20,210 nucleotides of DNA from positions 1 through 20,210 of IMG/VR virus record IMGVR_UViG_3300035196_000084. One strand, written 5' to 3'. Origin of the DNA: a virus. Position numbers and translations under genes: made by a program. Every line of letters starts with the position of its first letter. Within the stretch, counting starts at the first letter, position 1. The notes beneath the pieces were generated by a model. The model had not been told where the DNA came from, made no database searches, and saw only the letters and a program-made list of their open reading frames with translations. Positions 4,814 to 10,120 of the stretch are shown piece by piece.

Positions 4814-5650
4814 TTAATATAATGATTGTGTTAATTCGTTTGTTCGTGGTAATCCATCGCCTCCAATTGAAAATTCAAAGTCATCTATTGGAAAGCCTCT
4901 AGTGTATGCGAATTTAACAGACGTTGCTTCTTGTCCGTATTCTAATACACAAACAGTTTCCGCTTTTTTCATTACCGCAGAACCTAAATGCCCTGTTGGT
5001 CGGTTTGATCCGAAATTAGTATGTAAAATCCCAGTAAGATGACATTGGCTAACGTCCGTCCAACTCATTAATCTTTGCACCATTTCATTACATTGTGTTA
5101 AGTCGTTCACATCTGAAACTAAATCAGCGAAGCCATCGATACTCACAAGCCCTATGTTAGACTTAAACTCACTTTCCATAATACACCACTCTATGAATTC
5201 TAAACGCTCTCTAAACGTGTATTTACGCAAAGAGAATGGTTTATAGAAATTAGCATTACCTCCGACTAAATCACAAACTCTTTTAAATACTCTTTGCGAA
5301 TGATAAGCCGACTGCTCTGTATCAAAATCTAAAACAAAACCCTCGCCCACTCTGTGACTTCTAAAGTCTGGTGCGTATGTGTTTGTCTTACCTCCGATGT
5401 ATGCAGCCATTACAAGAGACTTTAAGAATGATTTCCGAGCCTTTGACGCTCCAACAATACAACTAAAGTTACCATACGTTCCAAATGCGTTAGGGATTGA
5501 ATCTCCTTTGTACTCATGTGAGCCAATACTAACCGCTACAGGAGGGTGTAATAATTTTTCATTTACATCTACGAAAGCATCTAGTTTCATTTTATTGAAA
5601 TCTATACCGTCAGAAAGGTTTTCTAGGTTGTCAAGGTTTATTTGTTCCAT
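4814..5650 (-). CDS. RecA/DnaB-fold ATPase (AAA_25/RepA-like), probable replication helicase or recombinase loader
   Basis: A 278-residue P-loop ATPase. The Walker A is VGASKARKSF at about residues 66-75 (K73, S74). A VLDFDTEQ strand near 107-113 and a Walker B-like LVSIDGFADL at about 168-177 (D172) follow. A sensor region HTNFGSNRPTGHLGS then ends the core. This order matches the RecA-like family that includes plasmid RepA helicases and phage single-domain helicases or Sak4-like recombinases. The likely role is to unwind or load on DNA during phage replication or recombination. There is no primase or zinc domain, so any primase must come from elsewhere. The start overlaps the upstream 149-aa gene by 13 bp. 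Confidence 0.8.
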   Translation of the reverse strand: MEQINLDNLENLSDGIDFNKMKLDAFVDVNEKLLHPPVAVSIGSHEYKGDSIPNAFGTYGNFSCIVGASKARKSFLKSLVMAAYIGGKTNTYAPDFRSHRVGEGFVLDFDTEQSAYHSQRVFKRVCDLVGGNANFYKPFSLRKYTFRERLEFIEWCIMESEFKSNIGLVSIDGFADLVSDVNDLTQCNEMVQRLMSWTDVSQCHLTGILHTNFGSNRPTGHLGSAVMKKAETVCVLEYGQEATSVKFAYTRGFPIDDFEFSIGGDGLPRTNELTQSLY

Positions 5651-6431: not shown

Positions 6432-6454
6432 TTAAAGTTTAATATATCTTAGTT
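6432..6454. repeat. 23-bp direct repeat, left boundary of the modification island
   Basis: Identical over 23 bp to 10072-10094. It contains TTTAATATATCTTAG on the plus strand and sits in the leader of the 110-aa core gene. The second copy follows the DnaD-like core gene on the other side of the island. The pair looks like a target-site duplication or the footprint of recombination. Confidence 0.8.
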
Positions 6455-6460
6455 AATTTG

Positions 6461-6531
6461 TTAAAAGGTGTGTTTAGCCCCCTATATTTCCGTGTATGTT
6501 TACCTTTGATTTTAAAAGGTGTGTTTAGCCC
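6461..6531. repeat. Pair of 20-bp direct repeats at the island's end
   Basis: A 20-bp sequence containing GGTGTGTTTAGCCC occurs at 6461-6480 and 6512-6531, with 31 bp between. The stretch lies between the half attC-like site and the 23-bp boundary repeat. Part of it can also form a small stem (ACCTTT/AAAGGT). It may be debris of a damaged last cassette site. The phrase GGTGTGTTTAGCC resembles the spacer plus GTT box of the site at 8380-8446. Confidence 0.7.
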
Positions 6532-6534
6532 TAC

Positions 6535-6541
6535 GTTACCC
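6535..6541 (-). other. Half attC-like site after the last island gene
   Basis: GGGTAAC on the minus strand, 11 nt after the last methyltransferase stop and in the same context as the full site at 7263-7321 (ATTATTATGGGTAAC in both). The matching stem and GTT box are absent. The distal half was lost or never present. Confidence 0.45.
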
Positions 6542-6552
6542 ATAATAATTTT

Positions 6553-7215
6553 TTAGCCATCTACACGTGCTACTGCAACGTTAAAAAACTCTTCATCAAG
6601 TTCACACCCTATAAAATTTCTGTTTGTGTTCTTACAAGCAACAGCAGTAGTCCCACTTCCCATAAACATATCCAACACCATATCGTTTTCATTAGTACTA
6701 TTGTTGATATAGTATTCTATTAAATCAGTAGGCTTTTGTGTTGGGTGTACTTTATTTTTAGGCACATCAAACTTGTGTACTGTTTTACTGCCTTTATTAT
6801 TTATGCTTTTTGCCTTGCCTTTCTTTGCAAAAATTACATATTCAGCATTTTTTAAATACCACCTATTAACAACAGGCTTTTTTTCCCATACTAATAAATT
6901 ATGCACATAAAACTCACTTTTCTCAAATAGTGTTAAAAACTTGTTTAAGTTTAAAAGGTTAGTAAAAAAATAAATATGGCTTTGCTCCTTCATAATTCTA
7001 AACATTTCACACATAAAGTTTTCATTAAAATCAACTTCATTGTGTTTAAATATTTTACCATTATTTTTCCATTTACCCTTATAAAAAGCGTTTGCAGTTT
7101 TGGTTTGTCCTCCACTTATTACTTTATAAGGTGGGTCTGTAATAATAGCGTCAATACTATTATCTTCAATCGTTTTCATTACTTCAAGGCAATCGCCTAA
7201 TCTTAAATCTATCAT
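6553..7215 (-). CDS. DNA adenine/cytosine-N4 methyltransferase, beta class (island gene 5)
   Basis: Transfers a methyl group from S-adenosylmethionine to an exocyclic amino group in DNA. The catalytic motif DPPY lies at residues 27-30, with a HPTQKP motif and the SAM-binding motif VLDMFMGSGTTAVA near the C-terminus; catalytic-before-SAM order defines the beta class. At 220 residues it has little room for a separate target-recognition domain. There is no restriction gene nearby, so it is an orphan methylase, most simply protecting phage DNA from host restriction. Its first 42 bp are identical to those of island gene 4, and its last codons (ARVDG) plus following bases also match, while the middle differs strongly. 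The leader shares 23 bp with the Mom-like gene. Confidence 0.9.
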   Translation of the reverse strand: MIDLRLGDCLEVMKTIEDNSIDAIITDPPYKVISGGQTKTANAFYKGKWKNNGKIFKHNEVDFNENFMCEMFRIMKEQSHIYFFTNLLNLNKFLTLFEKSEFYVHNLLVWEKKPVVNRWYLKNAEYVIFAKKGKAKSINNKGSKTVHKFDVPKNKVHPTQKPTDLIEYYINNSTNENDMVLDMFMGSGTTAVACKNTNRNFIGCELDEEFFNVAVARVDG

Positions 7216-7238
7216 ATATTTTAATTTTTCAAATTAAT
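7216..7238 (-). repeat. Shared 23-bp leader, copy 1
   Basis: The 23 bp just before the ATG of island gene 5 are identical to 9195-9217 before the Mom-like gene. On the minus strand it is A-rich (TTTGAAAAATTAAAATAT), so it probably acts as the ribosome-binding leader. Identical leaders on unrelated genes suggest a common cassette background. Confidence 0.7.
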
Positions 7239-7262
7239 TTGCCACCGCACAAAAATAACTAT

Positions 7263-7321
7263 GGGTAACACCGTATAAAATCCATTGCGAAAAGCAACGG
7301 TTCTTATACAAACCGTTACCC
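7263..7321 (-). other. attC-like site a (59 bp) after island gene 4
   Basis: Minus strand: GGGTAAC, spacer GGTTT, arm GTATAAGAACCGTTGC, loop TTTTC, arm GCAATGGATTTTATAC, spacer GGT, GTTACCC. The outer boxes pair perfectly, and the arms pair with scattered mismatches. It starts 12 nt after the stop of gene 4. There is no T-run after it, so it is not a terminator. Confidence 0.55.
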
Positions 7322-7333
7322 ATAATAATTTTT

Positions 7334-8053
7334 TTAGCCATCTACACGTGCTACTGCAACGGCATAGTATTGTGGGTCTTTCTCTATTCCTATTCCGTTT
7401 CTGTTTAGGTTTTTACAGGCTAACATAGTTGTTCCACTTCCCATTGTATTATCCAAAATGGTATCGTTTTCTAAAGAATATGTTTTTACTAAATACTCAA
7501 TTAATTCTAATGGTTTTTGTGTTGGATGTAAAGGTTTGTTATTACTTGCATTTGCATTTGATACCTCAATTAAATTTTTAGGATACCAAGTTTTATATAT
7601 TTTATATTCCGTTTTCCCATTACTATTTATTAAGTCGGTTTTATTAAACTCTTTACTTTTTTTCCATTTATTTTTAGGTCTATCAATCATAATAGGGTAA
7701 TAATTATGTTTAGAATTTCCAAAAACAATAATATCTTCTGTTTGTTGCAATGGTCTATGTTTTGCTACTAAATGACCTCTTGCGGTTACTTTATTCCAAA
7801 CCCAACTATATTTAAACTTTTTATAATTACTACTAATTAAAGCACTTGTAAAAGGTTGGCTACCAAATAACACTATTGCACCATTACTTTTTATAACTCG
7901 ATTATATTGTTCCCAAAGCGGCTCAAATGGTATTATACTATCCCATTTACAAGCAGTAGTTCCATAGGGCAAATCGCAAATAATAGCATCAATGCTTTTA
8001 CTTGGTATTTCTTTCATTACTTCAAGGCAATCGCCTAATCTTAAATCTATCAT
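7334..8053 (-). CDS. DNA N6-adenine/N4-cytosine methyltransferase, beta class (island gene 4)
   Basis: A 239-residue SAM-dependent DNA methyltransferase. The catalytic motif appears as DLPY at 27-30, a known variant of DPPY, followed by GTTACKWD and, downstream, SQPFTSAL. HPTQKP and the SAM motif ILDNTMGSGTTMLA follow near the C-terminus. I start at ATG 8053 (MIDLRLGDCLEVMK) because the sister gene starts identically there. A longer frame to 8182 would translate the attC-like site and overlap the DUF551 gene. The gene shares identical 5' and 3' ends with island gene 5. No restriction partner is seen, so the role is probably anti-restriction. Confidence 0.9.
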   Translation of the reverse strand: MIDLRLGDCLEVMKEIPSKSIDAIICDLPYGTTACKWDSIIPFEPLWEQYNRVIKSNGAIVLFGSQPFTSALISSNYKKFKYSWVWNKVTARGHLVAKHRPLQQTEDIIVFGNSKHNYYPIMIDRPKNKWKKSKEFNKTDLINSNGKTEYKIYKTWYPKNLIEVSNANASNNKPLHPTQKPLELIEYLVKTYSLENDTILDNTMGSGTTMLACKNLNRNGIGIEKDPQYYAVAVARVDG

Positions 8054-8082
8054 TCTATTATCTTTATCGGTTAAATAAAAGT

Positions 8083-8135
8083 GCCTAACAAGGTGTAAAA
8101 CGCAATAAAAAAAGCGTTTACACAAAACGTTACCC
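8083..8135 (-). other. attC-like site b (53 bp), best match to integron core-site consensus
   Basis: Minus strand: GGGTAAC, spacer GTTTT, arm GTGTAAACGC, loop TTTTTTTATT, arm GCGTTTTACAC, spacer CTT, GTTAGGC. The last box fits GTTRRRY exactly. The arms pair except for one extra base on the distal arm, like the extrahelical base of real attC sites. It starts 10 nt after the DUF551 gene stop and ends 29 nt before the next ATG. Confidence 0.6.
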
Positions 8136-8145
8136 ACCATTAAAA

Positions 8146-8358
8146 TTACTTTGTTTGTGGTTCTTCTGGTAGTTCGCACCAATGGGTTACATCTTTCATA
8201 AAGCTTTCCCCTGCTTCATCATAAAATCCTTTTACATCATCGTAGTATTCAGCTACTACCCAACGGCTATTCTTAGGGAAGCTATGTGGTGCATAAGCTA
8301 AATAGCTTCCACATTCTACATCGGGCAATTTGTCTTTTACATTAAATATTTCTGTCAT
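8146..8358 (-). CDS. DUF551-like small protein (island gene 3)
   Basis: A 70-residue protein with the pattern KDKLPDVECGSYLAY, then WVVAEYYDD and F, then DVTHWCELPEEP. The closing VTHWxxLPxxP is characteristic of DUF551, a small domain found in many phages with no known biochemical role. The island context (modification genes) suggests an accessory function, but nothing identifies it. It is bounded by attC-like sites on both sides (8083-8135 and 8380-8446). Confidence 0.75.
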   Translation of the reverse strand: MTEIFNVKDKLPDVECGSYLAYAPHSFPKNSRWVVAEYYDDVKGFYDEAGESFMKDVTHWCELPEEPQTK

Positions 8359-8379
8359 AATTCCGTAATTTTAAAAGAT

Positions 8380-8446
8380 GGCTAACACCACCTAAAGTTT
8401 ATAATTTTCGTTCCTCAAATTTCAATCCTTAGCTTAAACGTTATAA
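8380..8446 (-). other. attC-like site c (about 67 bp), degenerate
   Basis: Minus strand: TTATAAC, then an arm around CTAAGG, an AT-rich inner stem (AATTT/AAATT), arm CTTTAG, then GT GGT and GTTAGCC. The last box differs by one base from GTTRRRY. This site is the least regular. An alternative start for the AAC box is 8480-8486, right at the Mom-like gene stop, which would make it about 107 bp long. Confidence 0.4.
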
Positions 8447-8487
8447 AACATATTTTGTAAAAGGGGCTGCCACTCATACGTTCTCAC

Positions 8488-9189
8488 TCAATCGTTATTA
8501 TAATGCTTTAAATATGGTTTTTCTTTTTTAGTACATTTCTTAATCCAAGATTTATCTAAAAATTTAATATACCTAAATTGTCTTAGCGTGTGTTGTATAA
8601 CCCTGTCTTTATTTTTAGGGTCATTTAATAAACGAAAACCTCTCTTCCCCGCTTTTTCACTTGTTTTTATAGAATTATGGAATGTTTCACCATCTAATTC
8701 CCAAAAACTACTTGTATGTTCACCATAAAATCTAAAAGAACACGCTTGGTAAACAATACCCAAACCGCCACAACGCTCATCTGCAAAACTTTGAATCCAT
8801 TTAATAGTTTTTAGTTTTCCTTTAATATATTTAATGGAATAACTAATTGCTTTGCTTTCTGGGTAATCACCTACATCATCAGCAATCCACATTCTATTTA
8901 ATTCTAAATATTGGTTCATTTCCGTTCCCGTTACAAGGCTTCCACCACTTGCTGGGTTCATTGCATAACCATATTGTAAAACGCCTAGAAACTCACCTTT
9001 AATAAACACACCTAGATTAACATACGTTCCATTATAACATTTTTTTGAATAATGGTTTTTTATAATAGTTTCTCTTGCTAAATCTTTGTCAATTTCTTTT
9101 ACATAGAAATCTTCTGTTCCATAACCTATAATGTCTTTATGTCCAAACATTGGTATTTGGTCGCTAAAAATATATCCTTTCTTACTCAT
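8488..9189 (-). CDS. Mom-like DNA base-modification protein (island gene 2)
   Basis: A 233-residue protein resembling the phage Mu Mom family, GNAT-fold iron-dependent enzymes that turn adenine in DNA into a methylcarbamoyl-type hypermodified base and block many restriction enzymes. Seen: the NHYSKK motif (H46, Y47) in the region where Mom proteins carry a conserved histidine-tyrosine pair, GVLQYGYAMNPASGG at 69-83, LELNRMWIADD at 95-105, PESKAIS at 110-116 and SFADERCGGLGIVYQAC at 134-150. The last three blocks are the family signature as I know it. In Mu, modification needs only Mom plus a host cofactor. Here it sits among three methyltransferases, so the island acts on DNA bases. The start is ATG 9189, with the shared leader just upstream. 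Confidence 0.8.
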   Translation of the reverse strand: MSKKGYIFSDQIPMFGHKDIIGYGTEDFYVKEIDKDLARETIIKNHYSKKCYNGTYVNLGVFIKGEFLGVLQYGYAMNPASGGSLVTGTEMNQYLELNRMWIADDVGDYPESKAISYSIKYIKGKLKTIKWIQSFADERCGGLGIVYQACSFRFYGEHTSSFWELDGETFHNSIKTSEKAGKRGFRLLNDPKNKDRVIQHTLRQFRYIKFLDKSWIKKCTKKEKPYLKHYNND

Positions 9190-9194
9190 ACTTA

Positions 9195-9217
9195 ATATTT
9201 TAATTTTTCAAATTAAT
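9195..9217 (-). repeat. Shared 23-bp leader, copy 2
   Basis: Identical to 7216-7238, lying 5 bp before the ATG of the Mom-like gene. A likely A-rich ribosome-binding leader. Confidence 0.7.
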
Positions 9218-9238
9218 GCCCCTTTTAAAAAAAACGTT

Positions 9239-9301
9239 TAATAACACCGCATATAATTCATTGGCGAAAAGCCAACGCAATCATATTCGTATCCGTTGTG
9301 C
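9239..9301 (-). other. attC-like site d (63 bp) after island gene 1
   Basis: Minus strand: GCACAAC, spacer GGATAC, arm GAATATGATTGCGTTGGC, loop TTTTC, arm GCCAATGAATTATATGC, spacer GGT, GTTATTA. The apex TTGGC/GCCAA is a perfect stem. The same TTTTC loop and similar apex occur in site a. It begins 6 nt after the methyltransferase stop. Confidence 0.55.
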
Positions 9302-9307
9302 ATAATA

Positions 9308-9991
9308 CTAGGCTAGTCTTTCATTTGCTATATTATAGTAATGCTCATCTAATTCTATACCAATGTATTGCCTATTTGTTTGTTTGCTTGCTATCGCAGT
9401 ACTACCTACACCTAAAAACGGGTCTAAAACTATCTCGTTTTCTTTACTACTATTTTCAATCAATACTTTCATTAAATCAATAGGTTTCTCTGTTGGGTGT
9501 ATTGGCTTATTATCTTCTCCCTTTGTTTTTGTATTTGGATATTGTAATAAATCACTTGTTCCACAATTATTAATCCTTACAAATTTACCTTTGCGTAAAA
9601 ACAAAATAAACTCAAATTGACTCATATATGCTTGGCTCATTATCTTATTATCCTTTGCCCAAATCATAGTTTTAACTAAATGAAAATCGGTATCATTAAC
9701 AGCATCTAAAAAAGGATAAAGATTTTTATTATTACACATTATGTAACAATGTCCTGTATCTTTTAAAACCTCATAGAGTTTTGGTAGCCATTCTTTAATA
9801 GTTAAAGTGTTTTCTTTAAATACTTTCCCTTTTCTCATTTTATCGTCAAGCATCATGCCACCTGCATTAGTATAACCACCTCTCGTAGTTACTTTGTAAG
9901 GAGGGTCTGTTGCTATTAAATCAACTTTGTATTCTTTTGCTATCATTCTGTCAAGTATTTCAATAGCATTATCGTTAAATATTTTATTCAT
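9308..9991 (-). CDS. DNA methyltransferase, beta class (island gene 1)
   Basis: A 227-residue SAM-dependent DNA methyltransferase: DPPY at 29-32, HPTEKP and the SAM-binding stretch VLDPFLGVGSTAIA near residue 190, in beta-class order. It is distinct in sequence from the two sister methylases (starts MNKIFNDNAIEIL). The short length suggests it either recognises DNA by loops inside the catalytic fold or modifies loosely. It is the first gene of the island in transcription order. A full attC-like site lies upstream and another directly after its stop. No restriction gene is adjacent. Confidence 0.9.
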   Translation of the reverse strand: MNKIFNDNAIEILDRMIAKEYKVDLIATDPPYKVTTRGGYTNAGGMMLDDKMRKGKVFKENTLTIKEWLPKLYEVLKDTGHCYIMCNNKNLYPFLDAVNDTDFHLVKTMIWAKDNKIMSQAYMSQFEFILFLRKGKFVRINNCGTSDLLQYPNTKTKGEDNKPIHPTEKPIDLMKVLIENSSKENEIVLDPFLGVGSTAIASKQTNRQYIGIELDEHYYNIANERLA

Positions 9992-10025
9992 TCTATTTAA
10001 TTTATTCGTTAATAATCCGTACTAT

Positions 10026-10077
10026 GTACAACAACGTATAAAGTGAATTAAAACGCACCTTATACAATGCGTTAAAG
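10026..10077 (-). other. attC-like site e (52 bp) before the first island gene
   Basis: Minus strand: CTTTAAC, spacer GCATT, arm GTATAAGGTG, loop CGTTTTAATT, arm CACTTTATAC, spacer GTT, GTTGTAC. The arms pair with one mismatch. The site begins inside the 23-bp boundary repeat, so the repeat and the array are physically joined here. It sits where an attI or a first attC would be. Confidence 0.55.
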
Positions 10078-10094
10078 TTTAATATATCTTAGTT
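10072..10094. repeat. 23-bp direct repeat, right boundary of the modification island
   Basis: Second copy of the repeat at 6432-6454, 26 bp after the stop of the DnaD-like gene. Joining this copy to the other one recreates a short intergenic spacer between two core genes. Confidence 0.8.
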
Positions 10095-10120
10095 GATTAA
10101 TTGCTTTTACCTTCCAGTTT

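Follow-up and report, generated by a model that had tools for sequence, protein, structure and literature searches.

How single genes come to lie between similar palindromes in a phage genome, and what might move them, is the question raised by a 20,210-bp record of a marine bacterial virus from IMG/VR (IMGVR_UViG_3300035196_000084; the whole of this 20-kb fragment is called the window below). In one region of the window, five genes on the same strand lie between five palindromic elements and a terminal AAC box (Table 1). An original prediction, made from the sequence alone, interpreted this region as a phage-borne, integron-like cassette array that has no integrase and whose cargo modifies DNA. 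The analyses described here partly support this interpretation. The region probably comprises five complete mobile cassettes, inserted in a phage genome, that belong to an integron-like system found in Bacteroidota. Evidence for the integron-type design comes from complementary cassette ends, changes of neighbouring genes, and the presence or absence of cassettes in related phages. The predicted cargo is borne out by profile matches, which identify three DNA methyltransferases and a Mom-like protein.

The palindromes belong to a structured element family

A covariance model (R1) was built from 40 related elements, including four of the five elements of the window. All five score between 32.0 and 66.4 bits with this model (Table 1), among them the full palindrome that had been described ahead of the first gene (E1), and the held-out element at 8442-8384 still reaches 32.0 bits. 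The fold shared by the 40 elements consists of AAC, 5 nt, a stem opening with GTATAAG, a loop, a stem closing with TTATAC, 3 nt and GTT. Paired cells make up 95.4% in the alignment, and nine pairs exhibit two-sided changes, a level of covariation not reached by any of 500 shuffles, with kinship among the alignment rows being the main caveat. A two-arm scanner yields 232 matches versus 3 in reversed-sequence controls. Given the model scores and the covariation relative to shuffled alignments, the window palindromes are not chance occurrences.

At E ≤ 2.3e-6, R1 finds exactly these five elements in the window, in agreement with the claim that they are confined to the array. The only match elsewhere is marginal (13.7 bits, E 0.18) and lies in an intergenic segment at 2615-2674 on the minus strand; it is possibly a decayed element. 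A search of the window against Rfam at E ≤ 1 matched no family.

Each cassette carries an attC-type site with R boxes, a stem and an unpaired spacer. The sequence confirms the quoted spacers (GTT, GGT, GGT, CTT and GGT) and both quoted boxes, GTTAGGC and GTTAGCC. The use of GTTRRRY as a diagnostic did not hold up, given that an exact RRRY is present in just 10 of 184 and 26 of 184 boxes. The family fails the GTTRRRY/RYYYAAC consensus and has instead the R-box consensus GTT-R-K-N-N-R-Y; the window holds a single exact GTTRRRY box.

An exact pattern derived from the first elements occurs in at least 119 viral stretches, and a somewhat stricter pattern occurs in 19 stretches among 84,980 bacterial and archaeal genomes, mostly of Flavobacteriales. 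These counts do not constitute a comparison of rates, because the two collections are of unequal size and phage sites supplied the patterns. The chromosomal elements are longer, at ~130 nt.

Cassette ends are complementary and the core is linked to the following gene

The six bases after GTT differ between cassettes, and they complement the six that precede the AAC with which that cassette ends. Among 66 cassettes, the two end boxes of a cassette are complementary at 3.80 of 6 positions on average, versus 2.25 ± 0.15 when ends are re-paired randomly (at most 2.82 in 2000 permutations). Pairing between the flanks of a single element is weak (2.27 versus 2.05 ± 0.09). Held-out bacterial arrays yield 5.27 of 6 versus 2.30 ± 0.24 for permuted ends, with at least five matches in 32 of 37 cassettes. 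Complementary cassette ends, as found in integrons, are thus a property of these arrays. Among the window cassettes, five of six positions match in cassettes 1 and 2 and four in cassette 3; the end box of cassette 1 (ATTATGCACAAC) abuts E2. The start of cassette 5 is complementary to its end (GTTACCC...GGGTAAC). What had been described as half of a palindrome after the last gene is this end box of cassette 5, and no broken palindrome is present there.

Comparisons between arrays were used to establish which gene the palindrome accompanies. Where the homology of a pair is confined to the right side, beyond GTT, core identity averages 0.70 (41 pairs, nine of them at ≥0.9). The average is 0.47 for pairs that are homologous only to the left (n=16, none at ≥0.9), versus 0.53 for random pairs. 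These values indicate that the core moves with the gene after it and that the breakpoint is the AAC box. On this basis, crossover is placed at the AAC box, corresponding to G|TT on the opposite strand. Ownership of each palindrome by the preceding gene, as implied by the cassette polarity of the original prediction, is contradicted by this linkage and by a junction between the phages P12002L and P12002S described below. The five same-strand genes and their palindromes are thus present as claimed, with each palindrome travelling with the following gene.

Cassettes differ between related phages

In a comparison of the near-identical Polaribacter phages P12002L and P12002S, a single 914-bp cassette is present in P12002S and absent in P12002L. 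This unit consists of a core plus the methyltransferase P12002S_0038, and the 500 nt on each side are 100% identical between the two phages, with the junction located within TAACGT. A whole cassette has thus been inserted or excised in this pair, which provides a natural before-and-after comparison in phages that are already cultured. The array is also missing from a close relative (L283), in which the ATPase from the vicinity of the array is 86% identical. Identical cores and genes are also found next to differing neighbours. A fixed order of the five genes with unrelated spacers had been named as evidence against the cassette reading; the order is not kept in related phages. A 68-nt sequence (AACAACGGATAAAACAAGTTTTACC...) is located at array ends in P12002L and P12002S (L002 7888-7956, L002 ~15950 and L003 14714-14781). 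Its palindrome resembles the chromosomal attI-like site described below, and it is perhaps a phage insertion point.

Up to 41 of 98 non-redundant phage cassette genes (about 40%) encode DNA-modification enzymes: 23 N6_N4, 7 D12, 4 C5, 6 Mom and 1 MT-A70. This count tallies families that may overlap, and it is somewhat inflated by a minority of loci that were fetched with mom or via methyltransferase similarity. An element directly adjoins mom in about six of 80 mom relatives (L025/L026, L046, L047, L058 and L080), and most of the 80 have no adjacent element.

Phage cassettes are inverted relative to bacterial attC polarity. Of their genes, 93 of 98 run along the model strand, versus 5 of 47 in bacteria, where 42 of 47 are opposite.

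The same elements adjoin a recombinase gene in Flavobacteriaceae chromosomes

The best integron-integrase-like recombinase of each element-bearing Flavobacteriales genome was picked by recombinase score alone, which yielded 15 loci. Elements are near 13 of these 15 recombinases, versus 1 of 20 XerC/XerD genes from the same genomes (Fisher p = 9e-7). This array-type recombinase is encoded in 45 of 60 evenly drawn Flavobacteriaceae genomes, usually as a single copy. Among 20 recombinase flanks, 14 carry elements (53 matches in 295 kb); none were detected in 336 kb from 20 arbitrary regions of these genomes. In sampled Bacteroidota genomes, the gene is present in 43 of 118, or about a third. In other Bacteroidota, only 4 of 15 loci have R1 elements adjoining the recombinase, which indicates that R1 is biased to Flavobacteriales.

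All 45 genes between consecutive elements of the bacterial arrays are opposite to the model strand. The recombinase gene is located at one end of the array, and its 3' end faces the array in most loci (exceptions are L272 and L273). In 12 loci, a GTT-N6 box occurs 27-97 nt after the recombinase stop codon and is complementary to the end of the first cassette at 8-9 of 9 positions. A near-perfect palindrome of 22-26 nt ends just before this box in 6 of the 12 loci (0 of 300 shuffles each). The box, together with the palindrome where present, is an attI-like site. A candidate attI beside the integrase gene is thus found in chromosomal loci only; the attI-like palindrome pattern was sought in the window, and none was found.

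Several other observations were made at these loci. A small Zn-ribbon gene with the motif CLACxKPLxGRSDKKFCD, perhaps a regulator, lies divergently beside the recombinase gene in five genomes (L268 16900, L271 2777, L276 5456, L281 1318 and L275 6103). The recombinase gene is often 1-3 kb from a contig end, as though assemblies break within arrays. In L291, an element (4944-4996, 30 bits) is located ~0.6 kb from a XerC/D-type recombinase gene. A contig from a Cloacimonadota metagenome-assembled genome (L206) carries four elements, and no array-type recombinase was found nearby.

The recombinase is related to IntI and has no IntI-specific domain

The best profile for the array-type recombinase is NF040815 (XerA-type), whose cut-off is exceeded by four of five tested sequences. 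Scores against TIGR02249 fall below the cut-off, and model positions ~181-238, which represent the IntI-specific domain, are unmatched. None of the 15 element-bearing genomes encodes a canonical IntI above the TIGR02249 cut-off. Among proteins of solved structure, XerA and IntI4 are closest, with IntI4 matching in two pieces. The spacing from KxxKDR to HxLRH is 57-59 amino acids in these proteins, 62-66 in 9 of 10 XerC/D proteins, and 100-101 in IntI.

Trees were midpoint rooted and included four IntI and two XerA sequences. The recombinases of Flavobacteriaceae form one clade with a recombinase encoded by phage L176 (97/93), and the array-type clade is sister to IntI (94/93, two XerA sequences included). 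L176 is a 102-kb phage contig with terminase and exonuclease genes, and it carries five elements and two methyltransferases. Its recombinase gene, at 7215-8021 (+), directly follows the five-element array. Among ~200 viral loci, array-type recombinases were found only in L176 and, as a more distant relative, in L195.

IntI is defined by its IntI-specific domain (PMC7784347). The insertion is noted to be not fully conserved in a subgroup of integron-like tyrosine recombinases (PMC8138268). The recombinase associated with these elements does not carry this additional domain, and by definition the system is outside the IntI integron class to which the original prediction had pointed. On the structural criteria that were tested, it departs from integrons only in its R-box consensus and in its integrase domain.

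Weighing the explanations

In the preferred reading, each cassette, read on the minus strand, consists of an attC-like core, a GTT-N6 start box, the gene and an N6'-AAC end box. The complementarity of N6 and N6' would allow a free circular cassette to rebuild one continuous palindromic site, and the folded strand may be the recombination substrate. The cassettes would be moved by the tyrosine recombinase that adjoins the same elements in Flavobacteriaceae chromosomes, with the enzyme either supplied in trans to the infecting phage or encoded by the phage itself, as in L176. The three methyltransferases and Mom would modify phage DNA and thereby permit escape from host restriction, and cassette exchange could let phages swap modification specificities. 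With somewhat less confidence, we favour a broader proposal in which Bacteroidota have a second class of integron, whose IntI-sister integrase would recombine hairpin sites without the IntI-specific domain, using a code of GTT-N6 boxes and a palindromic attI. Phages would then hold a distinct, inverted pool of anti-restriction cassettes rich in methyltransferase and Mom genes, with some phages carrying the recombinase.

It is unlikely that the array is simply an ordinary cluster of attC sites lacking integron-integrases (CALIN), with classical attC sites that derive from and are moved by a canonical IntI, and with the flavobacterial recombinase having no relevance to the phage. This view is consistent with the findings that IntI1 recombined P12002L_attC2 with attI1 as frequently as it did attC_aadA7, and that HattCI+INFERNAL predicts attC sites, this one included, in the P12002L array (PMC9892861). 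Genes for intI with the patch have also been reported in the Bacteroidetes/Chlorobi group (PMC2426708). However, P12002L_attC1 failed with IntI1 (PMC9892861), and the R box departs from GTTRRRY. In addition, the 15 element-bearing genomes yielded no recombinase above the IntI cut-off, and the elements adjoin the domain-less sister clade in 27 of 35 loci. We consider it less probable still that the palindromes are structural or regulatory repeats, such as terminators or leader structures, and that phage homologous recombination shuffles the genes. Repeats do invite homologous recombination, some cores diverge within the element (L101 versus L167), and the 3' ends of cassettes 4 and 5 share 32 identical bp beside the terminal box, as detected by a repeat search of the window. 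However, such shuffling would not be expected to give each cassette its own complementary end boxes, to break at the AAC box, or to leave a clean insertion between 100% identical flanks. Nor would it account for elements that are tightly linked to a single recombinase clade and to an attI-like box, and the Rfam result offers no known structure. Mobilisation of the palindromes by a REP/IS200-type or other transposase is highly improbable. Single genes flanked by short imperfect palindromes would fit such a mechanism, but the gene beside the bacterial arrays encodes a tyrosine recombinase of the XerA/IntI group, and head-to-tail arrays in a single orientation with uniformly co-oriented genes are not the REP pattern; no search aimed at a Y1 transposase was made.

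Several observations weigh against the preferred explanation, that these are cassettes of a Bacteroidota integron-like system. The end boxes of cassette 4 match at only three of six positions. The common 3' end of cassettes 4 and 5 suggests that homologous recombination is also acting, and the 27-bp repeats that flank the array (Table 1) are unexplained by cassette insertion. The inverted polarity in phages is likewise unexplained by this reading, and it may reflect a separate cassette pool or another enzyme. No recombinase and no attI-like site were recognised in the window, though it is only a 20-kb fragment. Recombination has been demonstrated for IntI1 acting on P12002L_attC2, not for the Bacteroidota enzyme, and because IntI1 recombines one P12002L site, it is possible that a true IntI operates in some host.

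Relation to known systems

The array in the window is of a kind that is already known. Qi et al. (2023) described a CALIN with two methyltransferases in phage P12002L (PMC9892861), which, like the window, represents a lytic Bacteroidota phage with DNA-methyltransferase cassettes between attC sites and without an integrase. P12002L carries the same element family, and the closest DNA matches obtained from the phage collection are methyltransferases of this phage. Unlike that CALIN, the window additionally holds Mom and DUF551 cassettes. It has five sites within 2.8 kb and no recognised recombinase gene in the available 20 kb, and its own status as a CALIN hinges on the definition of attC. The earlier paper left the site family, the cassette boundaries, the chromosomal home and the recombinase undefined, and it reported the P12002L site directions as 'divergent' (PMC9892861), which might be explained by inverted gene polarity.

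The chromosomal system behind the phage array appears to be a new integron variant. Like sedentary chromosomal integrons, it has a recombinase at one end followed by an attI-like box, single-gene cassettes with complementary ends, and palindromic sites of 50-130 nt in a single orientation. It differs from them in that the recombinase is without the IntI-specific insertion of about 42 amino acids, the box reads GTT-R-K-N4 rather than GTTRRRY, and the spacers left unpaired measure 3 and 5 nt. Unlike in most sedentary chromosomal integrons, the flavobacterial recombinase genes are mostly transcribed toward the array, an arrangement otherwise known only from Treponema-type integrons.

The special domain of IntI is regarded as enabling integrons to use folded single-stranded sites. 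If the proposed reading is true, a widespread and seemingly intact cassette system run by the sister clade of IntI, without this domain, would be a living test of integron origins. The complete-integron mode of IntegronFinder would miss such a system, because it requires the IntI-specific domain (PMC9668308). For lytic phages, the proposal also specifies how genes for DNA modification could be exchanged, namely in units of whole cassettes.

The array-type recombinase belongs by sequence to the XerA or 'integron-like' simple tyrosine recombinases (NF040815; PMC8138268 subgroup), and no cassette function was found assigned to members without the insertion in the papers covered. The payload proteins belong to the families of phage Mu Mom and phage orphan methyltransferases, here carried as cassette cargo. 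In the literature covered, which excluded preprints and most subscription journals, no description was found of the flavobacterial recombinase as a cassette integrase, of its attI-like site or of the element family.

Features of the window

Table 1. Features of the cassette array in the window. Scores for elements were obtained with covariance model R1.
Feature	Position	Strand	Evidence
AttC-like element E1, 5' core of cassette 1 (AAC...GTT)	10030..10073	-	60.4 bits, E 5.8e-14; in training set
Cassette 1: N6_N4-type DNA methyltransferase, 227 aa	9308..9991	-	PF01555 E 5.7e-40; phrog_67
AttC-like element E2, 5' core of cassette 2	9243..9297	-	45.3 bits, E 6.3e-10; in training set
Cassette 2: Mom-like DNA modification protein, 233 aa	8488..9189	-	PF25680 E 1.7e-65; phrog_1384
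AttC-like element E3, 5' core of cassette 3	8384..8442	-	32.0 bits, E 2.3e-6; not in training set
Cassette 3: DUF551 protein, 70 aa	8146..8358	-	PF04448 E 6.7e-6
AttC-like element E4, 5' core of cassette 4, GTT box GTTAGGC	8087..8131	-	46.2 bits, E 3.8e-10; in training set
Cassette 4: N6_N4-type DNA methyltransferase, 239 aa	7334..8053	-	PF01555 E 1.7e-30
AttC-like element E5, 5' core of cassette 5	7267..7317	-	66.4 bits, E 1.5e-15; in training set
Cassette 5: N6_N4-type DNA methyltransferase, 220 aa	6553..7215	-	PF01555 E 2.6e-36
Lone AAC box GGGTAACG, terminal end box of cassette 5, right-hand junction with phage DNA	6534..6541	-	sequence
27-bp direct repeat, left copy	6432..6458		repeat search
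27-bp direct repeat, right copy (96% identical), overlaps outer edge of E1	10072..10098		repeat search

Relatives of the adjacent gene at 10699-10121 were searched for, and none were found. The 27-bp direct repeat (TTAAAGTTTAATATATCTTAGTTRATT) bounds the array, and its left copy is located immediately upstream of the next phage gene. A 20-bp sequence (TTAAAAGGTGTGTTTAGCCC) is present twice at 6461-6533, in the interval from the terminal AAC box to this gene.

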